A stretch of DNA of 64,000 nucleotides from Psychrobacillus psychrodurans (GTDB taxonomy: Bacteria; Bacillota; Bacilli; Bacillales_A; Planococcaceae), in NCBI GenBank assembly GCA_900114885.1, contig FOUN01000003.1, positions 186,001 through 250,000 of the forward strand, given 5' to 3'. The translations under genes and the position numbers were made by a program. The notes beneath the pieces are model-generated. The model saw nothing but the letters and a program-made list of their open reading frames with translations. It was not told where the DNA came from and did no database searches. Shown one piece after another: positions 6,258-35,355 of this stretch; positions within the stretch are counted from its first letter, which is position 1; each line of letters starts with the position of its first letter.

Positions 6258-9200
6258 ATGAAACGTAAATTTGGATTGAAGTATTTTAAGCCTACAGAAA
6301 AATATTCAGGAAGCTGGTCGATTCTTGAGCAAAAAAACCGAGACTGGGAAAATATGTATCGTGAACGTTGGTCACATGACAAAGTAGTTCGGACAACACA
6401 CGGAGTTAACTGTACTGGTTCTTGTAGTTGGAAAGTATTTGTGAAAAACGGAATTATTACATGGGAAAATCAGCAAATAGATTATCCATCATGTGGTCCT
6501 GAAATGCCGGAATTTGAACCTAGAGGATGTCCTCGTGGAGCATCATTTTCATGGTATGAATATAGCCCATTACGTGTGAAATATCCATATATGCGAGGTC
6601 GTTTGTGGAGACTTTGGAAATCTGCATTACATGAACATACAAATCCAGTGGATGCTTGGGGAAGTATTGTTGAAGATCCAGAGAAAGCATTTACTTATAA
6701 AAGAGCCAGAGGTAAGGGAGGACATGTCCGAGTTTCCTGGCAGGATGCAATGGAATTGATATGTGCACAATTGATCTATACGATTCGTAAGTTTGGTCCT
6801 GATAGAATAGCTGGATTTACACCAATTCCGGCAATGTCAATGATCAGCTATGCTGCTGGTTCGAGATTTATCAGTTTACTTGGTGGGGAAATGTTAAGTT
6901 TCTATGATTGGTATGCTGATTTACCACCAGCTTCACCACAAATTTGGGGAGAGCAAACAGATGTACCGGAATCATCTGATTGGTACAATTCGGGTTATTT
7001 AATAATGTGGGGCTCAAATGTCCCATTAACTCGTACACCAGATGCCCACTTTATGACTGAGGTTCGTTATAAAGGAACAAAAGTTGTTTCGGTTGCTCCT
7101 GACCATGCAGAAAACGTGAAATTTGCAGATAACTGGCTAGCTCCACATCCTGGAACAGATGCTGCTGTAGCTCAAGCGATGACACATGTTATTTTGGATG
7201 AGTTTTACGTTCAACGTAAAGAAGAAATGTTCATTAACTATGCAAAACAATATACAGATATGCCATTTTTAATTTTATTGGATGAACATGAAGGTATTCA
7301 CAAAGCTGGACGGTTCTTACGCGCAAGTGACTTTGGAGATACAAGAGAGAATTCTGAGTGGAAACCTGTAATTATTGATGAAATTACATCTAAAATAATT
7401 GTACCTAATGGGACAATGGGGCAACGCTGGGAACAAGATAAAAACTGGAATCTTATTTTAGAAAATGAAGATGGCACTAGAATTGATCCGGCAATGAGTG
7501 TTGAAAATTATGAATCAAGTAAAACAGAAATAGTTTTCCCATTCTTTGATAATGTTGCAAATGGAACATTTAATAGACATATCCCAGCTAAACAAGTTAC
7601 TTTGGCTGATGGAAGTACTCGTCTAGCAGTTACTGTATATGATTTAATGCTAAGTCAGTATGGTATCAATCGCGCGGAAAGTGAATTTAACGCAAAAGGA
7701 TATGATGATGCCGAATCATTTTACACACCAGCTTGGCAAGAAAAGGTCACTGGCGTAAAATCATCGGTAGTTGTACAAGTAGCTAGAGAATTTGCTCAAA
7801 ATGCTATTGATACAGAAGGTAGATCAATGATTATTATGGGGGCGGGTATTAACCATTGGTTCAATAGTGATACAATTTATCGATCTATTTTAAACCTAGT
7901 TATACTGACAGCGTCTCAAGGAGTTAACGGCGGCGGATGGGCCCATTATGTTGGTCAAGAGAAAGTTCGTCCTATTGAAGGCTGGAGCACTATTGCATTT
8001 GCTAAAGACTGGCAAGCACAACCGAGGCTTCAAAATGCTACTTCCTTCTTCTACTTTGCTACGGACCAATGGAAGTATGAAGAAATGGGTAATGACTCAC
8101 TAAAATCTCCTCTAGCTGGAGAGCTTAAGTACCAACATCCTGCAGATTATAATGTATTAGCTGCAAGACTTGGTTGGTTGCCATCTTATCCACAGTTTAA
8201 CAAAAATAGTTTACTTTTTGCTGAAGAAGCAGCGGCAAAAGGGAAAACAACAAATGAAGAAATAATAAAAACGGCATATGACCAAATCGTTTCAGGCGAA
8301 GTAAAAGGTGCAATCGAAGATCCAGACTCACCTGAAAACTTCCCAAAATCCTTATTTGTTTGGAGATCAAACTTAATTTCTAGTTCTGCCAAAGGACAAG
8401 AATATTTTATGAAGCATTTACTAGGTGCAAGTGATGGATTATTAGCGACTCCAAATGAAGATGAAAAACCTGAAGAAATAAAGTGGAGAGATGATGTAGA
8501 AGGTAAGTTGGATCTGTTAGTTTCTATTGATTTTAGAATGACAACTACTCCATTGTACTCAGATATTGTATTACCTGCTGCAACTTGGTATGAGAAAACA
8601 GATATTTCATCTACTGATATGCATCCATTTGTTCATCCGTTCAATCCGGCAGTAGATCCACTATGGGAATCACGTTCCGACTGGGATGTATACCGCTCAT
8701 TAGCTCAAACATTTTCTAAAATGGCGGAATCACATTTACCAGGAGTTTATAAAGACGTAGTTACTTCTCCGCTAGCACATGATTCGAAGAGTGAAATTTC
8801 TCAACCAATGGGATTAGTGAAGGATTGGAAAAAAGGTGAGGTTGAACCAGTCATTGGTAAAACTATGCCTAACTTTATAGTCGTGGAAAGAGATTATACA
8901 AAGGTTTATGATAAGTTTGTTTCGCTTGGGCCTTTAACTGAAAAAGGAAAAATCGGAGCTCATGGTGTAAGTTTCTCTGTAGCAGAAGAATACGAGGATA
9001 TGAAAAAAATAAACGGGACTCATTTTGATGACACCATTAAAAATGGACTCCCGATGATTCACTCAGCAAGACAGGCAGTAAACGCTGTACTTCACTTATC
9101 ATCAGCCACAAATGGTAAGGTATCTCAAAAAGCATTTGAATCAGCAGAAAAAGATACAGGTGTGCAGCTGAAGGATATTTCTGCAGACCGTGCAGCTGAA

Positions 9201-26464: not shown

Positions 26465-26554
26465 TGTCCAGACTCCAGCGCATAGCCGCTCGAGTCGCTT
26501 CAGACTAGCGAATAAAGGCAAAGAACGGGGCTGACATAGGCGCTTGCGCTTTTG
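26465..26554. repeat. Bacillaceae intergenic repeat, copy 2
   Basis: Opens with TCCAGACTCCAGCGCATAGCC and CTCGAGTCGCTTC and ends AGGCGCTTGCGCTTTT, parallel to the copy at 17799-17916. About 28 bases of the middle are missing relative to copy 1. It abuts the 21-bp array that follows. Confidence 0.75.
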
Positions 26555-26560
26555 ATATAA

Positions 26561-26695
26561 CCCATAAAATGCTGGAGATAGCCCATAAAAGTCTCTATAG
26601 ATTTTGAGAACGTCCTAATAGCCCATAAAAATTTGGAAATAGCTCTTAAACTATAGCGCATAGCCCATTAAAGCAATACAATGCCCCATAACAAC
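26561..26695. repeat. 21-bp-phased repeat array, core CCCATAAA
   Basis: Cores start at 26561, 26582, 26622, 26643, 26664 and 26685. All steps are 21 bases except one of 40, where a unit has decayed and lost two bases. Cores read CCCATAAA with variants CTCTTAAA and CCCATTAA, and most follow TAG. The core resembles the array before narG (5932-5994). It fills the gap between the SEC-C gene and the CoA-transferase stop. Confidence 0.85.
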
Positions 26696-26697
26696 AA

Positions 26698-27891
26698 TTA
26701 CTCATTCATAACTTTATCGGACAATAGTGTTCTTACTTCATCTTCTGTGTATCCAAGCTCCAAAAGTATTTCTTTGTTATGCTGACCAAGTAGGGGAGCT
26801 GCAGTTCTGAATTGTCCTGGTGTCTCGGAAAATTTAGCTGGAAAACCTAGTGTTTTCATTGGACCTGCTATCGGATGTACATAATCTACTATCATTTCTC
26901 TTGATAGAATATGTTCATCATTCAATGTTTGGTCATACGAATAGATAGGTCCAGAAGGGACGCCACTTGAATCTAGTAAATCTAGCCAGTAGGAGGAGTG
27001 GTGTTCGCTTAAAACTTCCTCTATTTCTATTTCTAGTTGGCTAGCATTTTTTGCTCGAATACTATTTGTTAAAAATCGTTCGTCCGTGAGCCATTCCGGT
27101 TTATGAACGACGTGTAAACAAAATTTTTCCCACAGTTTCTGATTACCTGCTCCAATAAGTATAAATCCATCTTGTGTTTTATAGCCTTGATATGGAGCAG
27201 AAACACGATGTGCTGTACCATTTCTTTGTGGTACTTCACCTTTGCCAAAATATGCTGCTGCTTCCCACACAGTCCATGCGAGACCAGAATCTACTAGGGA
27301 GACGTCGATATATTGTCCAGCACCTTTTTTTAACCGATAAATATAGGCGGATAAAATAGATTGGATGGCGGTTTGTGCAGCTGCAATGTCGTGTATTGCA
27401 ATGCCTACTTTGACAGGTTTTCCAGCTTTTTCTCCAGTCATATCGATCAGCCCTGAAAGTCCTTGGGCCATAATATCATAGCCACCTTTGTCTTTATAAG
27501 GCCCTGTTTGGCCATAGCCGGAAATAGAACAATATATCAACGCCGGGTTTATAGCTTTCAGCGTATCATAATCAATTCCAAGTTTCTTCGTAACACCAGG
27601 TCGATAATTTTCGATAAAAACATCCGCATTTTTAATAAGTCTATATAATACTTCTAGTCCTTGTTTTGTTTTTAAATTAATACATATCCCGCGTTTGTTA
27701 CGATTTACCATCATATACATATAGCTTTCTTCGTTTATATACGGTCCCATACTTCTAGTGTCGTCACCACTTGGAAATTTTTCCACTTTAATAACTTCAG
27801 CACCCATATCCGCTAAAACCATTGTGCAATAGGGTCCAGCGAGAACCTGCGATAAATCAAGTACCTTCATACCTTTTAATGCTTGTTCCAT
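26698..27891 (-). CDS. Class III (CaiB/BaiF-type) CoA-transferase
   Basis: A 397-residue family III CoA-transferase, moving CoA between carboxylic acids. Visible parts are the N-terminal KVLDLSQVLAGPYCTM, DMGAEVIKVE, NRNKRGICINLK, ENYRPGV, the catalytic aspartate in GGYDIMAQG near residue 170, and IDVSLVDSGL. Full length for the family. It is the last gene of the row starting at the SAM riboswitch, 27 bases after the oxidase gene, with AAGGTGG before the ATG. The acid substrate is unknown. The context suggests a sulfur-containing or 2-hydroxy acid, which is inference. Confidence 0.88.
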   Translation of the reverse strand: MEQALKGMKVLDLSQVLAGPYCTMVLADMGAEVIKVEKFPSGDDTRSMGPYINEESYMYMMVNRNKRGICINLKTKQGLEVLYRLIKNADVFIENYRPGVTKKLGIDYDTLKAINPALIYCSISGYGQTGPYKDKGGYDIMAQGLSGLIDMTGEKAGKPVKVGIAIHDIAAAQTAIQSILSAYIYRLKKGAGQYIDVSLVDSGLAWTVWEAAAYFGKGEVPQRNGTAHRVSAPYQGYKTQDGFILIGAGNQKLWEKFCLHVVHKPEWLTDERFLTNSIRAKNASQLEIEIEEVLSEHHSSYWLDLLDSSGVPSGPIYSYDQTLNDEHILSREMIVDYVHPIAGPMKTLGFPAKFSETPGQFRTAAPLLGQHNKEILLELGYTEDEVRTLLSDKVMNE

Positions 27892-27918
27892 CGTATATCT
27901 ACCACCTTATATTTTCCG

Positions 27919-29055
27919 TTAATCTTTTAATAGCTGAAGATTTTTAACTTCCTCTAAATTACGAGCACCACTTAACGAAATCGAAACTCTAAACTCCTGT
28001 AGGAAGTTCTCTAATACACGTTCCACACCGATTTGGCCCCCAGTAGCTAATCCCCATATGACGGGGCGACCAATACAGACTGCAGTGGCTCCAAGTGCTA
28101 AAGCCTTTACTGCATCTGATCCTCTTCTAATTCCACTATCAAATAAAACAGGAATTCTCCCGTTTACTACTCGGATGACTTCTGGGAGGGCATCAATGCT
28201 AGCAATAACACCATCTAATTGGCGTCCTCCATGATTCGAGACGATTATTCCATCCATCCCTTTTTCCACAGCAAGTTTAGCGTCCTCTGGGTGAAGTATT
28301 CCTTTTATTAGGATTGGTAGAGTTGTATGCTCGCGTAACTCAGAAATATTCATCCAATTTAAAGTAGGGTGGTAGATATTTTCTAGAATATTATTTACGA
28401 TAGTCTCTTGAGAATGATCGCTAAGTGAAGCCATGAATACTGGATCTGATGCATAATTTCCTTGTCCGAATCCGCGTTTCAATGGAGAGTATTGATTGCG
28501 AATATCTTCCTCTCGCCAGCCAAGCATCGTAGTATCTATTGTTAATACAATTGCTTCATAGCCCGCTGCTTCTGCTCTTTTTACCATACTAAAGGAAACT
28601 TCTTTATTTTGAGAAGACCAATATAATTGGAACCATTTAGAACTACCATTTGTTTCGGCTGCAATTTCTTCAATAGAATAGCTGGATACCGTACTTTGAA
28701 TATAAGAAAATCCGAATTTTGCTGCAGCTTTAGATACCGCTAATTCGCCATCTTCATGTGCAATTTTATTCACCCCGACGGGAGCAATGAGAAGGGGGTG
28801 GGGATATGTATGGCCTAGAATCGTGACTTCTGTATTTAAAGTAGATACATCCGTTAAAAAACGTGGGATGATAGAATACTTAAAAAAAGATTCTGTATTT
28901 TTTTTATATGTTTCTTCACCACCAGCAGAGGAACGAATGTATCCGAATGGACCGGGTTCTAATATTTGTTTTGCTCCTTCTTCTAATTCTGCAAAGTTAA
29001 TAGGATAATGGGAGTTTGCTCCAATATTTTTTAATAATAGATCATTCGTGGACAT
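27919..29055 (-). CDS. FMN-dependent 2-hydroxyacid oxidase, lactate 2-monooxygenase-like
   Basis: A 378-residue TIM-barrel flavoenzyme. Active-site residues of the glycolate/lactate oxidase family are present: Tyr in FQLYWSS, Asp in TIDTTMLGWREEDIRN, Lys in LIKGILHPEDA, and His and Arg in SNHGGRQLDG. The LGWR segment resembles lactate 2-monooxygenases. It oxidises an L-2-hydroxy acid to the 2-oxo acid or a decarboxylated acid. ATG 29055 follows AGAGGTG; the GTG at 29064 is part of the ribosome site. It starts 12 bases after the crotonase stop. Oxidation of a methionine-related hydroxy acid is plausible but unproven. Confidence 0.85.
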   Translation of the reverse strand: MSTNDLLLKNIGANSHYPINFAELEEGAKQILEPGPFGYIRSSAGGEETYKKNTESFFKYSIIPRFLTDVSTLNTEVTILGHTYPHPLLIAPVGVNKIAHEDGELAVSKAAAKFGFSYIQSTVSSYSIEEIAAETNGSSKWFQLYWSSQNKEVSFSMVKRAEAAGYEAIVLTIDTTMLGWREEDIRNQYSPLKRGFGQGNYASDPVFMASLSDHSQETIVNNILENIYHPTLNWMNISELREHTTLPILIKGILHPEDAKLAVEKGMDGIIVSNHGGRQLDGVIASIDALPEVIRVVNGRIPVLFDSGIRRGSDAVKALALGATAVCIGRPVIWGLATGGQIGVERVLENFLQEFRVSISLSGARNLEEVKNLQLLKD

Positions 29056-29067
29056 ATGAAACACCTC

Positions 29068-29844
29068 TTATGTAAAATTTGGTTTTCTTTTTTCTAAGAA
29101 TGCTTGGATGCCTTCTTTATAGTCATCGGAGCTGAAAGAATCTAAGATAAGTTCTTCAATTTGTTTTGTTTCTTCCTTATCACCATCAATAATTGCTTGA
29201 ATTACTTGTTTAATACCGTTATTTGCAACGGAAGACTTATGGATAATTTGATGAGCGAACTCATGACACTTTTCCTCTATCTCTTCCATCGGATAAATAT
29301 AGTCAACTAAGCCAATTTCTTTTCCTTCTTCTGCTGTGATTAGTTTTGCAGTATACAATAATTCCTTTGTTTTTGTAATTCCGATAAGGTTAACTAATCG
29401 TTTTGTACTTACAAGGTTATAAATAATGCCGATGTTTGCAGCGGTTATACCAAGCTTACTACCAGAAGATGCGAATCGGAAGTCACAGGAATTAGCAAGT
29501 TCTAATCCACCCCCAATTGCTAATGTCTTAATAAGGGCAATAGTAGGTTTGGGGAAACGATATAATTTTTCAATTGATTCAAGTGTTGCATCATTATAAT
29601 CCTTTGCTTTTTGGGCAGAAAAGCGATTTTCTAGAAACTCTGTTATATCTGCACCAGAGGAGAAAGCAGTTTCATCTGCACCTTTAAGGATTAACAATTT
29701 AACTTGCTGATCATTCTCTAAATCATTTAATATTTCACCGAGCTTTTTGAACATAGCAAGGGAGAAAGAGTTTTTCTTATCCACTCGGTTAAATACAACT
29801 GTTGCGATTGATCCACTTCGTTCCACATATAAAAGATTCGTCAT
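29068..29844 (-). CDS. Enoyl-CoA hydratase/isomerase (crotonase) family protein
   Basis: A 258-residue crotonase-fold protein with the oxyanion-hole segments SSGADITEFLENR and IGGGLELANSCDF. The first catalytic Glu (GGGLEL, Glu144 of rat hydratase) is present. By counting, the second (Glu164) is Ala in KLGITAANIG. Loss of that Glu argues against a simple hydratase and for an isomerase, hydrolase or lyase activity. It begins 14 bases after metI with GGAGGCG upstream, hence co-transcription with the methionine transporter. Substrate unknown. Confidence 0.8.
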   Translation of the reverse strand: MTNLLYVERSGSIATVVFNRVDKKNSFSLAMFKKLGEILNDLENDQQVKLLILKGADETAFSSGADITEFLENRFSAQKAKDYNDATLESIEKLYRFPKPTIALIKTLAIGGGLELANSCDFRFASSGSKLGITAANIGIIYNLVSTKRLVNLIGITKTKELLYTAKLITAEEGKEIGLVDYIYPMEEIEEKCHEFAHQIIHKSSVANNGIKQVIQAIIDGDKEETKQIEELILDSFSSDDYKEGIQAFLEKRKPNFT

Positions 29845-29858
29845 AAGTTCGCCTCCTG

Positions 29859-30530
29859 CTAATCTTTTTTAATATTTGCTGCAATACGATTTCCGATAGA
29901 TTGAATACTTTGTACTAGGATGATTAAAATTACTACTGTTGCATACATTACATCAACTTCATAACGTAAATGTCCGAAACGATATGCCAAGTCACCTAAA
30001 CCACCTGCACCAACCATACCTGCCATTGCTGTAGCACCGATTAAGCTGACCGTTGAAATGGTTAATCCTAAAACGATAGAAGGTCGAGCTTCTCGAAGTA
30101 AGACATTCCAAATGATTGCGCGTGTGCTAATACCCATAGCGGTATAAGCCTCAATGACACCATTTTCCACTTCCAAAAGAGCAGATTCCATTAGTCTAGC
30201 AATATATGGTGCTGTATAAATTACTAATGGCACGATAACGCCTTGAACTCCAATAGTTGTTCCAACTATTAATCTTGTAAAAGGAATTATGAAAAATAGT
30301 AAAATGATAAAGGGAACAGAACGTACAATATTTATGATTAAATTAGTAATTTGATATATAAATTTGTTTTCTAATGCCTGGCCAGGTCTAGTCAGGACGA
30401 TTAAAATACCTAATGGAATCCCGATTAATACAGAGAAAAATAGGGAGATACCCACCATTTGAAATGTTTGTACAACAGACTCACCAATAATCGGTAGCCA
30501 TTGTTCTATAAATTGATCGATTCTACTCAT
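29859..30530 (-). CDS. metP: MetI, methionine ABC transporter permease
   Basis: A 223-residue membrane protein with five membrane segments and the EAA loop (EAYTAMGIS ... REARPSIVLG), plus GATAMAGMVGAGGLGDLAY, typical of MetI (MetP in Bacillus). It forms the channel for methionine uptake. It overlaps metN by eight bases. The riboswitch upstream of metQ supports methionine as the substrate. Confidence 0.93.
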   Translation of the reverse strand: MSRIDQFIEQWLPIIGESVVQTFQMVGISLFFSVLIGIPLGILIVLTRPGQALENKFIYQITNLIINIVRSVPFIILLFFIIPFTRLIVGTTIGVQGVIVPLVIYTAPYIARLMESALLEVENGVIEAYTAMGISTRAIIWNVLLREARPSIVLGLTISTVSLIGATAMAGMVGAGGLGDLAYRFGHLRYEVDVMYATVVILIILVQSIQSIGNRIAANIKKD

Positions 30531-31548
30531 GAGACTGTCCCTCCAGTTCTTCCGTTGCTACACCTTGAGAATCTAAATAGTGTATAGCATTTTTAACCTG
30601 GTCCTTGTCGCCAATTAAATGGACCACTATATTTCCGACAATGCCATTTTTAAGTTCGATAATATTGGCAGTTAATATGTTCGGTTGGACATTAAATTTT
30701 TGACTTACTTCAGCTAATAAAGGTTTTCCAGTGCTTTCTCCGACAAATGTTAAGCGAGTGACTGCACCCGTAACAGTTAACTGAGAAATTAATGAAGTGG
30801 ATAAATTACGCTGACTTATTGTATTTAAAAACTTTTTAGTTGTAGGGTGTGTAGGGTTAGTAAATAGATTAATAGCTGTATTTTGTTCAACAATTTCTCC
30901 ATTTTCCATGACATATACATGATCACAAATTTTTTGAATGACATTCATTTCATGCGTGATTAAAAGTATAGTAATACCTAATTCTCGATTTATCTTTAGA
31001 AGCAAATCTAATATGGAATCAGTAGTTTCTGGGTCCAGTGCGCTTGTTGCTTCATCACTAAGCAATACTTCGGGTTCCTGCGCTAGTGCACGGGCAATTG
31101 CAACACGCTGCTTTTGGCCACCAGATAACTGGTTTGGATAGTTTGTATGCTTGTCAGTTAATCCAACTATTTCTAAATATTGATCCACTCGTTTTTTTAC
31201 TTGCGCTTTATTATATCCAAGTAGCTTAAGTGGAATGGCGATATTATCATAAACAGTTGCTGTTTTTAATAGATTAAATCCTTGAAATATCATGCCAATT
31301 TTATTGCGGGTTTCACGCAATTTAGGGAGGGGAAGGGAAGTAAGTTCAACACCGTTAATAAAAACTTTGCCTTCCGTTGGCTGTTCGAGTAAATTTACGC
31401 ATCGAATCAGTGTACTTTTACCAGCACCGCTATATCCAATGACTCCATGAATTTCTCCTTTATTTACCTGAATATTTACTTGGTTTACTGCCTTTACTAT
31501 TCCACTCTTGCTTTTAAATTCTTTCGATACATTTTCTAACTCAATCAT
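30523..31548 (-). CDS. metN: MetN, methionine ABC transporter ATPase
   Basis: A 341-residue ATPase: Walker A GYSGAGKST, signature LSGGQKQRVAIARAL, Walker B VLLSDEATSALDP, and a C-terminal NIL domain (about 265-341) that binds methionine and inhibits transport. It powers methionine import and is encoded between metQ and metI; B. subtilis has metN first. It follows metQ by 57 bases, a gap holding a 14-bp hairpin. Confidence 0.95.
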   Translation of the reverse strand: MIELENVSKEFKSKSGIVKAVNQVNIQVNKGEIHGVIGYSGAGKSTLIRCVNLLEQPTEGKVFINGVELTSLPLPKLRETRNKIGMIFQGFNLLKTATVYDNIAIPLKLLGYNKAQVKKRVDQYLEIVGLTDKHTNYPNQLSGGQKQRVAIARALAQEPEVLLSDEATSALDPETTDSILDLLLKINRELGITILLITHEMNVIQKICDHVYVMENGEIVEQNTAINLFTNPTHPTTKKFLNTISQRNLSTSLISQLTVTGAVTRLTFVGESTGKPLLAEVSQKFNVQPNILTANIIELKNGIVGNIVVHLIGDKDQVKNAIHYLDSQGVATEELEGQSHE

Positions 31549-31568
31549 TTACTATCTTCCTTTCTAAA

Positions 31569-31598
31569 GAAAACGCTACCGAAGTCGGTAACGTTTTC
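31569..31598 (-). terminator. Attenuator-like hairpin between metQ and metN
   Basis: On the minus strand GAAAACGTTACCGA pairs with TCGGTAGCGTTTTC over 14 bp (one G-U pair) with a two-base apex, followed by only three T. Likely a partial terminator or RNA-stabilising stem giving more MetQ than the downstream products. Confidence 0.65.
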
Positions 31599-31605
31599 AA
31601 GTCCA

Positions 31606-32427
31606 TTATTCGTCCCAGCTAGCTAATACAGAACCTTTAAACTCTTCTTCGATAAACTTTCGTACTTCTTCCGATTGATATGCTTTTACAAATTTTTGAA
31701 TCGTTGGATCATCTTTATTTTCCGCACGAACAACCACAAAGTTTACATAAGGTGAGTTAGAAGATTCTAATAATATAGAGTCCTCTTTTGGGCTAATTCC
31801 TGCTTCAAGTGCAAAGTTCGTATTAATGGCAGCTGCATCTACTTCACTTAATTGTTTTGGTATTTGAGCAGCTTCTAGTTCAATAAATTCCAGGTTTTTT
31901 GGATTTTCTTCAATGTCATAAATACTAGCTGTTTCTCTTTTGTCTTCTTTAATTTTGATGTAGCCATGTTCTTCTAAAATGTATAGTGCACGCGCGCCAT
32001 TCGTTGGATCATTTGGCAAACCAAAAGTTGCACCGTCTGGTAGATCATCAATTGACTTGTATTTTTCTGAATATACACCCATTGGATTTAAAATTGTTTT
32101 TCCTACTGGTACTAAGTCAGTACTGTGATCCTCGTTAAACGTGTCTAGGAAAGGTTCGTGTTGATAGCTATTCGCATCTAAATCACCTTCTGATAATGCA
32201 GTGTTAGGTAGAATATAATCAGAGAATACTTTAAGTTCTACTTCTAAACCATCTTTAGCTGCTACTTCTGCAGCTACTTCTACAATTTGTTCATGTGGTC
32301 CGGCAGTTACTCCTACTACTATTTTGTCTTCATTGATTGCTTTAGACTCTGAGGCTGCGTTAGACCCACATGCTGCAAGAGTTCCAGTTAATAATACCGT
32401 TGATAATAAAAATCCAATCTTTTTCAT
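31606..32427 (-). CDS. metQ: MetQ, methionine-binding lipoprotein
   Basis: A 273-residue lipoprotein: signal peptide with lipobox LAAC (Cys20), then the MetQ/NlpA fold (VGVTAGPHEQIVE, DANSYQHEPFLD, PNDPTNGARAL, AAINTNFALEAG). It captures methionine on the outer face of the membrane and delivers it to MetI. It is the first gene after a SAM-I riboswitch on the minus strand. Confidence 0.95.
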   Translation of the reverse strand: MKKIGFLLSTVLLTGTLAACGSNAASESKAINEDKIVVGVTAGPHEQIVEVAAEVAAKDGLEVELKVFSDYILPNTALSEGDLDANSYQHEPFLDTFNEDHSTDLVPVGKTILNPMGVYSEKYKSIDDLPDGATFGLPNDPTNGARALYILEEHGYIKIKEDKRETASIYDIEENPKNLEFIELEAAQIPKQLSEVDAAAINTNFALEAGISPKEDSILLESSNSPYVNFVVVRAENKDDPTIQKFVKAYQSEEVRKFIEEEFKGSVLASWDE

Positions 32428-32464
32428 TTGTCATTCCTCCGAATAATTATTAAGAACGTTGTAT

Positions 32465-32500
32465 AAATATAAAAGCCTCTCTTCCAGTAGAAAGAGAGGC
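32465..32500 (-). terminator. Riboswitch-controlled terminator upstream of metQ
   Basis: On the minus strand GCCTCTCT pairs with AGAGAGGC (32475-32482 with 32493-32500), then TTTTATATTT. It follows the SAM aptamer and is the expected off-state expression platform. Confidence 0.85.
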
Positions 32501-32517
32501 GCATACATACGTTTGTC

Positions 32518-32637
32518 CTCTCTTATCTATCAAAACAAAATGTTTTGCAGGATTTAGCACCTTTCCATATACAAAAAATATATGGATGGTTGCCGAGCTT
32601 CATAGGGCCAGTCCCTCAGCTACTCTTGATAAGAGAT
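32518..32637 (-). promoter_or_regulatory. SAM-I (S-box) riboswitch aptamer
   Basis: Read on the minus strand: CTCTTATCAAGAG, GCTGAGGGACTGGCCC, a GAAGCTCGGCAACC block, an AT-rich hairpin, AAGGTGCTAAATCC and finally GATAAGAG closing the P1 helix (32628-32635 with 32520-32527). All conserved S-box blocks are present in order. High SAM should favour the terminator downstream and shut off metQNI and whatever is co-transcribed. The class is well established in Bacillales for methionine and cysteine genes. Confidence 0.96.
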
Positions 32638-32673
32638 ATCAGCTATTAAGTTTTCCAACAGTTCATAAAATAT

Positions 32674-32702
32674 AATTTACTACATCAAATTATTAAAGTC
32701 AA
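32674..32702 (-). promoter_or_regulatory. Promoter of the riboswitch transcript
   Basis: On the minus strand TTGACT (complement of 32697-32702) and TAAATT (complement of 32674-32679) with a 17-bp spacer, about 40 bases before the aptamer. Confidence 0.6.
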
Positions 32703-32788: not shown

Positions 32789-33295
32789 TTGTCAAAAATT
32801 AGAGCAAATTATGCTGTAGGGCAGCTAGGGAAGATAGTGAGCGCACGTTTAGTTTATGGAACTGATCTGCTGGAAGGGATAGAGGAATTGTGTAAAGTAA
32901 ATGGAATTCAATCCGCTACAATTCTTAGTTGTTTTGGTAGTTTTCAAAGATGTGGATTTGTGTATTTAGTACCAAATGAAGATTCCCCTATAGGTGTAGG
33001 ATACAATAATCTTGTTGTGAAAGAGGGGCCAATTGAGTTCTTGCAGGGTACAGGAGTTGTATGCCAAAGAGATGATCAATTTGAAACGCATTTCCACGGT
33101 ACAATATGTGACCAAAATGGCAATATTTTTGGTGGTCATTTTATTAAAGGTGAAAATCCTGTTATTACAGTAGACCTAGTGTTGGCAGAAACTGTTGATA
33201 TGGAGTTTAAGAGACAGTTTGACGAAGAAACAGGAGCTAATCAGTTTTATCCTGTAGAAACGAATAAAGAAAAACCTAATCATCTACATAAATGA
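32789..33295 (+). CDS. PPC-domain (DUF296) protein
   Basis: A 168-residue protein of the PPC/DUF296 fold, known from plant AT-hook proteins and found singly in bacteria; there is no AT-hook here. Key parts are ATILSCFGSF, the histidine pair THFHG and NIFGGHF, which form a probable metal or ligand site. TTG 32789 follows AGGGAGTG by eight bases. It is divergent from the SAM-riboswitch operon and converges on mtnE. Bacterial PPC proteins have no agreed function; a small-molecule role is as likely as DNA binding. Confidence 0.75.
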   Translation: MSKIRANYAVGQLGKIVSARLVYGTDLLEGIEELCKVNGIQSATILSCFGSFQRCGFVYLVPNEDSPIGVGYNNLVVKEGPIEFLQGTGVVCQRDDQFETHFHGTICDQNGNIFGGHFIKGENPVITVDLVLAETVDMEFKRQFDEETGANQFYPVETNKEKPNHLHK

Positions 33296-33300
33296 AAATT

Positions 33301-33331
33301 GCAGCCCTATATTAAAGGGCTGCACTTTTTT
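33301..33331 (+). terminator. Terminator between the PPC gene and mtnE
   Basis: GCAGCCCT (33301-33308) pairs with AGGGCTGC (33315-33322), then ACTTTTTT. It serves the plus-strand gene and may also block the converging mtnE transcript. Confidence 0.85.
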
Positions 33332-34493
33332 AAAATAAATTAAGCTTTCCAATGCGTGTAATTGCTTCTCTTAATCGAACTTCATCCACTAATAAACCCA
33401 CGCGAACATACCCTTCGCCGTATCCACCAAACCCATTACCAGCAGCAACTGCTACATCGGCTTCGTTCAAAAGTAAATCTGCAAAAGCTTCACTTGTAAA
33501 ATTATCGGGAACAGGTAACCATGCGAAAAAGGAACCTTTTGGTGCATTCACCTGCCAACCAATACTGTTACAAGATTCAATAAGAGCATTTCGTCTGCCC
33601 TCATATAAATCCACTAATTCCTTTACACATTCTTGACTATTATTGAGTGCAACCGTTGCAGCATCCTGTACGGCAGGGAAGAGACTAACAAATAAGTGGT
33701 CTTGAATTATATTTATAGCTTCAATAATTTTAGCGTTCCCAACAGCAAAACCAACTCTCCAGCCAGCCATATTATACGTTTTGGACAATGTGTACATTTC
33801 AATACCTACGTCTTTTGCACCATCAGCTTGTAAGAAACTAATTGGCTTCTCTCCATCAAAACCTATTCCACCATATGCAAAATCATGGACAATGGCAATG
33901 TCCTTTTCTTTTGCCAACGAAACAGTTTCTTGGAAAAAGTCTAAATTAGCGATAGCGCCAGTGGGGTTATTTGGATAATTTAAGTACATAAGTTTAGCTT
34001 TTTGTTTTTGCTCCTCTGTTAAGGAACTGTAATCAGGAAGGAAATTATTTTCCTTGAGTAATGGCATCGTGTCAAACGCTACATTAGCAAGTCCTACCCC
34101 AGATAAATAATCAGGATAGCCTGGGTCAGGAAGTAGCATTAAATCATTTTCATTCATCAGTGCCAACGGGAGCTCTACTAAGCCAATTTTAGTGCCAAAT
34201 AATATCGCTACTTCAGTTTCAGGGTCAATGTCAACATTATATTCTCGTTTATAGAAATTGGCTGCCGCTTTTTTAAATTCTCCAGTTCCACGAAATGGAC
34301 TATACTTGTGGTTTAATGGATTGGCTGCCGCTTCCTGCAGTGCTTGTACAATATGCTCAGGAGTAGGCTGATCAGGATTACCTTGTCCAAGATTAATCAC
34401 ATCTCTACCTTCTAAAACTGCGTCTCCAACTTTTTTTACTAGTGTAGCAAAAAACTGTGAAGGTAGATTTTTTAAACGGTTTGAAAATTCCAT
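33330..34493 (-). CDS. mtnE: MtnE-type aminotransferase of methionine salvage
   Basis: A 387-residue fold-type I PLP enzyme. The cofactor lysine is Lys238 in LSKTYNMAGWRVG; NLGQGNPDQPTPEH, NYPNNPTG and KYSPFRG are present. The sequence resembles Bacillus MtnE, which transaminates 2-oxo-4-methylthiobutyrate to methionine. I start at ATG 34493 (GAGG eight bases upstream), not at the longer frame. It is divergent from mtnU. No other methylthioadenosine salvage genes are in the window. Confidence 0.85.
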   Translation of the reverse strand: MEFSNRLKNLPSQFFATLVKKVGDAVLEGRDVINLGQGNPDQPTPEHIVQALQEAAANPLNHKYSPFRGTGEFKKAAANFYKREYNVDIDPETEVAILFGTKIGLVELPLALMNENDLMLLPDPGYPDYLSGVGLANVAFDTMPLLKENNFLPDYSSLTEEQKQKAKLMYLNYPNNPTGAIANLDFFQETVSLAKEKDIAIVHDFAYGGIGFDGEKPISFLQADGAKDVGIEMYTLSKTYNMAGWRVGFAVGNAKIIEAINIIQDHLFVSLFPAVQDAATVALNNSQECVKELVDLYEGRRNALIESCNSIGWQVNAPKGSFFAWLPVPDNFTSEAFADLLLNEADVAVAAGNGFGGYGEGYVRVGLLVDEVRLREAITRIGKLNLF

Positions 34494-34578: not shown

Positions 34579-35355
34579 ATGAGAATTGCATGTGTCCAAT
34601 TAAATATAGCTTTTGGTAACCCAAAAGAAAATTTTAGAAAAGTAGAAGAAAAGATTCGGAAAGCAGCGATGTTAAATGCAGAAATCGTCGTACTGCCTGA
34701 AATGTGGAATACTGGTTATGACTTAACAAAACTTGATGTAACAGCTGATGTAAACGGAGAAGAAACTAGAAATCTCCTAACTCGGTTAGCTAGTGAGTTA
34801 CATATTCATATTATTGGAGGCTCCGTTTCAACCCAAAAAAACAACCATTTCTTTAATACGATGTACGTAGTAAATAATATTGGAGAGCTGATTGCTGAAT
34901 ATGATAAAGCGCATTTGTTTAAATTAATGGATGAGCATCTATACTTAGAGGCAGGAACAAGCAAAAATATCTTCACGCTGAATGATGTCGAAATGGGTGG
35001 CGTTATCTGTTATGATTTACGTTTTCCAGAGTGGTTCCGTGCCCATTCATTGGCAGGAGCGAAAATTATTTTTGTACCTGCTCAATGGCCGGCTACTAGA
35101 GTTGATCATTGGAAAATATTATTACAAGCTCGGGCGATTGAAAATCAATGTTTCATCGTTGCAGTAAACCGGGTCGGAGAAGATCCTAACAATTCATTTA
35201 ACGGAAATTCGATGGTAATCGCACCATGGGGCGAGGTTCTTTGGGTTGGAGCTGATGAAGAAACAATAGGTTTAGTAGATGTAAACATGGATGATGTGGA
35301 AGAAGTAAGAAAAAGGATTCCGGTTTTTAAAGACCGTAGAGTGGACCTATATTAA
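34579..35355 (+). CDS. mtnU: MtnU-type carbon-nitrogen hydrolase (nitrilase family, omega-amidase-like)
   Basis: A 258-residue nitrilase-superfamily protein with the catalytic triad Glu41 (VLPEMWNTGYD), Lys110 (YDKAHLFK) and Cys144 (GVICYDLRFPEW). MtnU sits beside MtnE in Bacillus and is thought to hydrolyse 2-oxo acid amides such as alpha-ketoglutaramate left by glutamine-dependent transamination. ATG 34579 follows AGGGGTG; the longer frame upstream overlaps mtnE and is rejected. Confidence 0.85.
   Translation: MRIACVQLNIAFGNPKENFRKVEEKIRKAAMLNAEIVVLPEMWNTGYDLTKLDVTADVNGEETRNLLTRLASELHIHIIGGSVSTQKNNHFFNTMYVVNNIGELIAEYDKAHLFKLMDEHLYLEAGTSKNIFTLNDVEMGGVICYDLRFPEWFRAHSLAGAKIIFVPAQWPATRVDHWKILLQARAIENQCFIVAVNRVGEDPNNSFNGNSMVIAPWGEVLWVGADEETIGLVDVNMDDVEEVRKRIPVFKDRRVDLY

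Follow-up and report, generated by a model that had tools for sequence, protein, structure and literature searches.

A SAM-I riboswitch operon of Psychrobacillus psychrodurans links a methionine-type importer to a 2-hydroxy-acid oxidase and suggests a route for salvage of the methionine hydroxy analogue

The window considered here is a stretch of 64,000 nucleotides from Psychrobacillus psychrodurans (assembly GCA_900114885.1, contig FOUN01000003.1, positions 186,001 to 250,000 of the forward strand), in which a SAM-I (S-box) riboswitch, responsive to S-adenosylmethionine (SAM), heads six closely packed genes on the minus strand. These are metQ, metN and metI, specifying a methionine-type ATP-binding cassette (ABC) importer, followed by genes for a crotonase-fold protein (ech), a 2-hydroxy-acid oxidase dependent on flavin mononucleotide (FMN) (hao) and a coenzyme A (CoA) transferase (coat) (Table 1). 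The original prediction had placed a complete aptamer and terminator ahead of metQ and described six minus-strand genes with short gaps, and our analysis confirmed both statements. The aptamer is full length and scores 98.3 bits against an Rfam gathering score of 44.4, above the threshold of the SAM-I family, and the intrinsic terminator sits between the aptamer and the metQ coding region. From the open reading frames, metQ and metN are separated by 57 bases, metN and metI overlap by 8, metI and the crotonase gene are 14 bases apart and the oxidase and CoA-transferase genes 27; the crotonase and oxidase genes lie 12 bases apart if the oxidase starts at the ATG at 29055, a GTG at 29064 being also possible.

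That no terminator parts the enzyme genes from the transporter genes, as had been proposed, likewise held. A ribosome-binding site was seen in the 14-base gap that follows metI, and no terminator. The possibility of a second promoter downstream of metI was set aside because promoter-like matches between 26300 and 33000 are not above the shuffled level (17 against 23.6) and because metI gaps are short in relatives: among 24 loci, in which L047 and L077 represent the same contig, metI is followed by the next gene after 7–25 bases in 21, after 69 in two and after 184 in one. The gap between metQ and metN, which ranges from 10 to 387 bases across relatives, holds in this genome a strong hairpin (31569–31598), not noted in the original prediction, that could set the ratio of metQ to metNI, possibly as a partial terminator or a stabiliser of the mRNA. 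At the other end, 3′ of coat (approximately 26540–26690), about four near-repeats of ATGGGCTAT are found on the minus strand and the operon terminator is not clear.

Table 1. Positions in the window of the riboswitch operon and of the genes beside it
Feature	Position	Strand	Basis
coat, family III (CaiB/Frc type) CoA-transferase	26698..27891	-	PF02515 (CoA_transf_3), E 7.7e-134
hao, FMN-dependent 2-hydroxy-acid oxidase, predicted L-2-hydroxy-4-methylthiobutyrate oxidase	27919..29055	-	PF01070 (FMN_dh), E 4.9e-121
ech, crotonase-fold protein	29068..29844	-	PF00378 (ECH_1)
metI, ABC permease	29859..30530	-	PF00528 (BPD_transp_1); NCBIfam MetI NF008049 best, below cutoff
metN, ABC ATPase with NIL domain	30523..31548	-	PF00005 and PF09383; NCBIfam TIGR02314 best, below cutoff
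Hairpin in metQ-metN gap, weak T tail	31569..31598	-	fold -19.1 kcal/mol
metQ, methionine-type substrate-binding lipoprotein	31606..32427	-	PF03180, E 2.6e-95; TIGR00363 above cutoff
Intrinsic terminator, riboswitch expression platform	32475..32500	-	11-pair stem, T tail
SAM-I (S-box) riboswitch aptamer	32520..32635	-	Rfam RF00162, 98.3 bits, positions 1-108 of 108
pcc, PCC/DUF296-domain protein, divergent from metQ	32789..33295	+	PF03479
mtnE, aminotransferase of 2-oxo-4-methylthiobutyrate	33330..34493	-	NF005977 PRK08068, 683.7 bits, cutoff 494
mtnU, nitrilase-family amidase divergent from mtnE	34579..35355	+	best NCBIfam NF007757 amidohydrolase, below cutoff

The transporter has the complete domain set of MetQNI, namely an NlpA lipoprotein, an ATPase with NIL domain and a permease, and MetQ aligns with E. 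coli MetQ (4yah). MetN and MetI miss the curated NCBIfam cutoffs (375.5 against 499.7 bits and 208.6 against 212 bits), and these are still the best-scoring families for both. The names mtnE and mtnU, for the genes beyond pcc, are presumed from context. The genome carries 11 SAM-I aptamers, one of which precedes a second metN (52% identical to that of the operon), while others precede genes that we read by eye as methionine salvage genes. Another lies directly 5′ of a gene resembling acyl-CoA dehydrogenases or related monooxygenases (L008, C16, 1501–2881).

The oxidase consists of an FMN_dh domain in which the Tyr, Arg and His-x-x-Arg motifs of the active site are conserved in the alignment. 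Its closest single-domain solved relative is lactate 2-monooxygenase (6dvh, 283 bits), with HAO1 at 269 bits and single lactate oxidase chains or domains at 229–237 bits. Among named models, those for lactate enzymes come nearest, each scoring below its cutoff, and the L-lactate oxidase model TIGR02708 is missed by a wide interval (286.4 against 645.5 bits). At the position which we take to correspond to Gly99 of lactate 2-monooxygenase and Ala95 of lactate oxidase, the protein has Gly (in APVGV), and changing Ala95 to Gly in lactate oxidase is said to yield a long-chain hydroxy-acid oxidase. FMN enzymes of this family are known to act on the L form of their substrates.

Conservation of the operon was assessed in sampled genomes, evenly drawn with one per species, the sample of the same family comprising 121 genomes with P. 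psychrodurans included. Throughout, 'not linked' denotes that no met gene was present in the flanking DNA examined, much of which consisted of 1.5 kb flanks, and in later loci Rfam was supplemented by our own SAM-I model, made from 35 aptamers that Rfam had found. Oxidase homologues at E<=1e-40 occur in 28 of the 121 genomes (34 matches). For all 21 matches of at least 56% identity, in 21 genomes, metI lies immediately upstream or at a distance of one gene, and metI was absent from the 1.5 kb flanks of all nine loci examined among the 13 weaker matches (47–52%). The closest named relatives at the locus are Psychrobacillus (oxidase identity 90%). A SAM-I aptamer lies upstream of metQ in 18 of the 21 operons; one of the other three contigs begins just 5′ of metN (G104), one ends inside metN (G053), and in the third, Sporosarcina-like G021, neither a permissive search of L064:300-1400 nor our own model found an aptamer. 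On the upstream side, mtnE is within about 3 kb in 16 of the 21, the contig being cut in two. The co-occurrence in relatives for which the original prediction had called is therefore clear and, since gene order, mostly with the riboswitch in the family cases, is kept in many genomes across genera and families, a chance neighbourhood is rejected.

The importer is itself distinctive within the family, since MetI of the operon belongs to a group found in 25 of the 121 genomes at no less than 67% identity (the next matches are 60% and 57%), and 21 of these 25 have the oxidase. Variation around this theme was seen. In G008 a tandem metQ pair, each member with its own SAM-I aptamer, stands 5′ of metNI-hao (L074, 7683–9453), and in G111 an aptamer precedes a class II aldolase-like gene and metQ-metN-metI with a MetI of 60% identity (L184, 4099–7843), possibly another substrate variant. 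Two Psychrobacillus genomes (G104 and G087; L040 and L041) have a paralogous oxidase (51–52%) beside two ABC ATPase-like stretches, perhaps of a peptide transporter, with no metI nearby. In G087 the operon seems to be decaying, as its oxidase has an in-frame stop, an IS3-like transposase gene precedes the aptamer, and none of ech, coat and pcc is present (L075/L019).

Outside the family, a class-wide search of 398 genomes found 34 with an oxidase match at E<=1e-110, of which 31 had a locus (G260, G202 and G412 being left out), and 12 of the 31 oxidases adjoin metNI. One genome (G298) has the full order SAM-metQ-metN-metI-ech-hao-coat with divergent pcc (L145). In G403 (L264) the aptamer is followed by a sodium:solute symporter-like gene, metQ-metN-metI and the oxidase gene; the symporter-like gene (7552–9171) is possibly a second importer of the same substrate. 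The oxidases of G387 and G369, below the class cut-off, are also linked, in S-box oxidase operons. Complete metQ-metN-metI-ech-hao-coat operons are present in three members of family f22 (G388, G467 and G233), and a fourth (G475) gave only partial matches to metN, metI and coat and none to metQ; pcc and mtnE were not found in the DNA examined around them. Upstream of metQ in G388 (L149, at 3372) a palindrome-like ATACT...AGTAT and, by eye, an ArsR-like reading frame suggest that another regulator may control the same genes in f22. The best single argument for a role in methionine metabolism comes from Bacillus timonensis (L049), where an oxidase gene standing by itself is preceded, at 93 bases, by its own SAM-I aptamer (91.5 bits) and where hcxA-metQ-metN-metI follows another aptamer a few kilobases off, so that the oxidase is co-regulated yet separate.

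We built a maximum-likelihood tree from a selection of 45 oxidases, of which 21 are linked to metNI or have their own aptamer; duplicate loci and some rows were omitted, including L019 with its in-frame stop. The linked label requires 10 changes, at least six of them forced by strong branches, and 4 of 500 label shuffles did as well; the positions of G369 and G387, both on long branches, are weakly supported. Linkage is thus clustered, yet it was repeatedly gained or lost, within f22 even among close relatives.

A second and non-homologous enzyme, an HcxA/YbdH-like dehydrogenase, occupies the same place in S-box operons of other Bacilli, which is new here. The gene upstream of metQ in L049, L064 and L059 encodes an iron-type alcohol dehydrogenase; one such protein aligns with E. 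coli HcxA over 357 columns at 39% identity, and eleven are 35–41% identical over 330–372 columns. NCBIfam NF007880 (PRK10586) was the best model for all four proteins compared, at 264–323 bits, below its cutoff of 429. Within the family, HcxA homologues at E<=1e-50 occur in 21 of the 121 genomes, 19 of which were examined (G028 and G089 were left out): nine have SAM-metN-metI-metQ-hcxA, with mtnE adjoining in eight, while G079 has SAM-hcxA-metQ and G021 has hcxA-metQNI-hao. The 398 Bacilli genomes gave 23 matches at E<=1e-70, including 16 that fall into 12 other families, and an aptamer is near hcxA in 10 of the 16 loci fetched outside the family. Gene orders vary: SAM-hcxA-metQ-metN-metI-hao runs uninterrupted in L246/L256; L248/L259 have SAM-metQ-metN-metI-hao with hcxA and mtnE divergent; SAM-hcxA-metQNI is found in L242 and L243, SAM-metN-I-Q-hcxA in L240, L244, L245 and L249, SAM-hcxA in L241, and SAM-hcxA-mtnU beside mtnE in L247. 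In L251, L252 and L260 the order is metQ-mtnE-metN-metI-hcxA with no aptamer detected, and in L260 the run extends to a methylthioadenosine (MTA)/S-adenosylhomocysteine nucleosidase scoring above its cutoff. Near hcxA, nothing beyond weaker matches to ABC ATPases and aminotransferases was seen in L250, L253 and L254, and none at all in L255.

In E. coli, hcxA (RefSeq 'hydroxycarboxylate dehydrogenase A') and ybdL ('methionine transaminase') are divergently arranged. In the relevant study, ybdH and mtnE (formerly ybdL) are reported to be under tight MetJ repression, the function of ybdH is given as unknown, and the E. coli branch is described as having lost a salvage cluster that once lay between the two genes (PMC3228920). 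The methionine hydroxy analogue, 2-hydroxy-4-methylthiobutyrate (HMTB), is a feed additive on which growth of an E. coli methionine auxotroph has been reported; according to that account, the strain showed no difference in affinity between methionine and the analogue, and similar maximum growth rates (PMC3274233). The available portions of these E. coli sources name no gene for oxidation of the analogue (PMC3228920, PMC3274233).

The genes flanking hao follow a pattern of their own. Within the family, coat (at least 71% identity), ech (at least 58%) and pcc (at least 54%) are found in the identical 14 of 121 genomes, at the operon locus, and all three also occur in G298. Two Psychrobacillus genomes (G087 and G104) have the oxidase and none of the three, while the f22 operons have ech and coat on either side of the oxidase gene and no pcc nearby. 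From this joint presence and absence and from the f22 pair, we conclude that ech and coat travel together and are optional. In the family (14 of 14) and in G298 pcc is strictly tied to them, but the f22 operons break this rule. Neither ech nor coat is ever beside hcxA in the loci examined, but at the level of genomes this exclusion breaks down in G079, which has both.

Presuming the usual catalytic roles of the crotonase Glu pair and the CoA-transferase Asp, the nucleophilic Asp is present in all 13 aligned CoA-transferases and the first catalytic Glu in all 13 crotonases of the operon, the second Glu being replaced by Asn (11), Arg (1) or Lys (1). The crotonase shares an Asn-x-Gly-x-x-Tyr-Asn run with methylmalonyl-CoA decarboxylase ScpB, is 31.6% identical to E. 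coli ScpB and misses the decarboxylase model NF008506 (161.5 against 257 bits). Because of the replaced Glu and the ScpB-like run, a plain hydratase is unlikely, and the identity of ech as a standard enoyl-CoA hydratase was rejected. The predicted structure of the PCC protein (pLDDT 66) matches metal-containing AF0104 and, more weakly, acetolactate decarboxylase and PTD012. A DNA-binding regulator, the label on some solved relatives, was set aside in view of the AF0104-like fold of this model (pLDDT only 66), and the matches make it more likely that the protein is an enzyme. Distant crotonase and CoA-transferase pairs in L143 and L144, beside TRAP (DctP, DctM) or tripartite tricarboxylate (TctA/TctC) transporters and a PrpR-like regulator, suggest a general carboxylate-activation module.

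On balance, these associations probably reflect a system for S-box-controlled salvage of HMTB. When SAM is low, the riboswitch would let transcription through, and MetQNI would import a methionine-like acid, namely HMTB and perhaps also methionine. The FMN oxidase would then convert L-HMTB to 2-oxo-4-methylthiobutyrate (KMTB), which MtnE, encoded next door, could aminate to methionine, with MtnU clearing the by-product; in relatives, the HcxA-like enzyme may perform the same step or act on the other enantiomer. We infer the substrate, the direction, the enantiomers, the regulation and the whole CoA branch from genomic links. HMTB is the simplest candidate substrate because two unrelated 2-hydroxy-acid enzymes alternate or join in SAM-controlled importer operons, often near mtnE; oxidation by HcxA at the 2-hydroxy acid is assumed here from its annotation. 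Since a futile pairing of a reductase with an oxidase is unlikely, the presence of hcxA and hao in one operon (L246/L256) suggests that both enzymes oxidise, perhaps opposite enantiomers. A gene for a hydroxy-acid enzyme lies near mtnE in 16 of 21 oxidase operons and 8 of 9 SAM-metNIQ-hcxA operons. The proposal that the three additional genes process a methionine-related acid stands in part: conservation associates them with methionine supply and indirect evidence from genomic context argues well for action of the oxidase on HMTB, while for the crotonase and CoA-transferase, whose genes are absent from 7 of the 21 family oxidase operons, association is all that was found.

The crotonase and CoA-transferase, with the PCC protein in this family, would form an optional CoA side branch, which we would guess leads the D-enantiomer or another precursor to the same point. 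One conceivable scheme, which we hold to be quite unlikely, has D-HMTB enter as a CoA ester and undergo epimerisation through an enolate stabilised by the crotonase, L-HMTB then being released for oxidation by the FMN enzyme; in some lineages the PCC protein, as a metalloprotein, would assist. We know of no crotonase that racemises the CoA ester of a 2-hydroxy acid. Were the scheme correct, the HcxA-like dehydrogenase might meet the same need in genera without the CoA set, a corollary that we consider equally doubtful. Against inversion stand one genome with both sets in separate loci (G079), six of the 21 family oxidase genomes with neither the CoA set nor hcxA, and the f22 CoA pair without a nearby pcc.

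Several observations weigh against HMTB salvage. The oxidase resembles lactate 2-monooxygenase, a decarboxylating enzyme, and the Gly noted above occurs in every row of the oxidase alignment, linked or unlinked. Linkage is far from universal: 19 of the 31 class-wide oxidases have no met genes in the DNA examined, as do six named Bacillaceae oxidases of the near clade; the linked and unlinked oxidases of f22 are close relatives; and 8 of 19 family HcxA homologues have neither met gene nor aptamer in the DNA examined. No SAM-I aptamer was detected in the Sporosarcina-like loci L064 and L059 or in the f22 operons of G388, G467, G233 and G475 (L149, L261–L263). Four genomes (G064, G009, G098 and G089) keep the MetI group, aptamer, metQNI and mtnE, and by eye mtnU, with no oxidase match. 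mtnE is absent near 3 of the 21 family oxidase operons and is not near the f22 or G403 operons; its nearness is in any case weak proof taken alone, since MtnE also completes the ordinary methionine salvage pathway, for which this genome apparently has S-box genes.

One alternative is metabolite repair, which we regard as unlikely, in which lactate-type dehydrogenases reduce some KMTB to HMTB inside the cell, the oxidase and HcxA recover it, and the transporter, merely co-regulated, performs plain methionine import. The S-box salvage genes read by eye in this genome would make KMTB, L260 has hcxA in a row with genes for MtnE and an MTA nucleosidase, MetQ is similar along its length to ordinary methionine-binding proteins, and oxidases without nearby met genes are common in the class; repair would, however, leave unexplained the tight family link of the oxidase to one MetNI group, with 21 of the 25 genomes of that group having it, and the retention of hcxA-ybdL in E. 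coli though the rest of the salvage cluster was lost, as PMC3228920 describes. An explanation from the methionine salvage pathway of another kind would assign to the HcxA-like protein the reduction of 2-(methylthio)acetaldehyde, as the alcohol dehydrogenase of the dihydroxyacetone phosphate shunt, leaving the oxidase unrelated. HcxA-like proteins are indeed iron-type alcohol dehydrogenases and, in PMC5893883, the shunt dehydrogenase is called putative or unknown; we nevertheless give this little credence, given hcxA and a hydroxy-acid oxidase gene in one operon (L246/L256), the RefSeq name of the E. coli protein and the position of its gene beside a methionine transaminase gene.

The structural affinities of the oxidase raise two further alternatives. 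Since its closest solved relative is lactate 2-monooxygenase, ahead of HAO1 and the lactate oxidases by the scores given above, oxidative decarboxylation is a rival: HMTB would yield 3-methylthiopropionate, the CoA-transferase would form 3-methylthiopropionyl-CoA, and the crotonase would expel methanethiol. This gives both CoA enzymes a clear substrate, but methylthiopropionate would be a dead end in the seven family operons without them, such a reaction is not to be expected of HcxA, which is found in operons of the same type, and methionine is not formed directly, so that we judge it decidedly improbable. The enzyme might also be an oxidase of lactate or glycolate that owes its place in a methionine operon to chance or to redox needs, as might be thought from a family assignment that extends to FMN_dh only, from the lactate models nearest to it and from the unlinked majority of the class sample. 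The association with SAM riboswitches across several families, the solitary oxidase under S-box control in B. timonensis, the HcxA counterpart and a linked state with fewer changes on the tree than in 496 of 500 label shuffles make this very improbable indeed.

If HMTB salvage is the correct reading, two non-homologous enzymes, repeatedly found under SAM control with a methionine-type importer and often next to the final enzyme of methionine salvage, become named candidates for HMTB oxidation in Bacilli and E. coli, the S-box regulon may gain a new substrate branch, and the operon provides a defined setting for an unusual trio of crotonase, CoA-transferase and PCC-domain protein. In a 2011 listing, hcxA appears as a MetJ-regulated gene of unknown function (PMC3228920). 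The original prediction had known of no operon of this make-up, and our search of the open-access literature found no such operon and no S-box hydroxy-acid oxidase.

Among known systems, the S-box metNPQ/metQNI importer operons of Bacillales are alike in having an aptamer and terminator before the transporter genes and a NIL domain in MetN; the present operon differs from them in the extra enzyme genes after metI and, in the family, in its separate MetI group. The enterobacterial pair of ybdH (hcxA) and mtnE (ybdL), as described in PMC3228920, likewise sets a gene for a hydroxy-acid enzyme beside that of the KMTB aminotransferase under SAM-responsive control, but there the enzyme is a non-homologous iron-type alcohol dehydrogenase, control is exerted by a repressor protein (MetJ), and the pair includes no transporter (PMC3228920). 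Lactate 2-monooxygenase, lactate oxidase and HAO1 have in common with the oxidase their fold family, active-site motifs and the Gly at the long-chain/monooxygenase position. Animal HAO oxidises L-HMTB and, to our knowledge, no bacterial FMN 2-hydroxy-acid oxidase is recognised as a methionine-salvage enzyme. Pairs of a family III CoA-transferase and a crotonase encoded together are familiar from CaiB-CaiD, for carnitine, and AcuN-AcuK, for acrylate, from which the pair described here differs in a crotonase that lacks the second catalytic Glu and is ScpB-like at that point, in its metQNI partners, and in the oxidase gene that lies between its two members.

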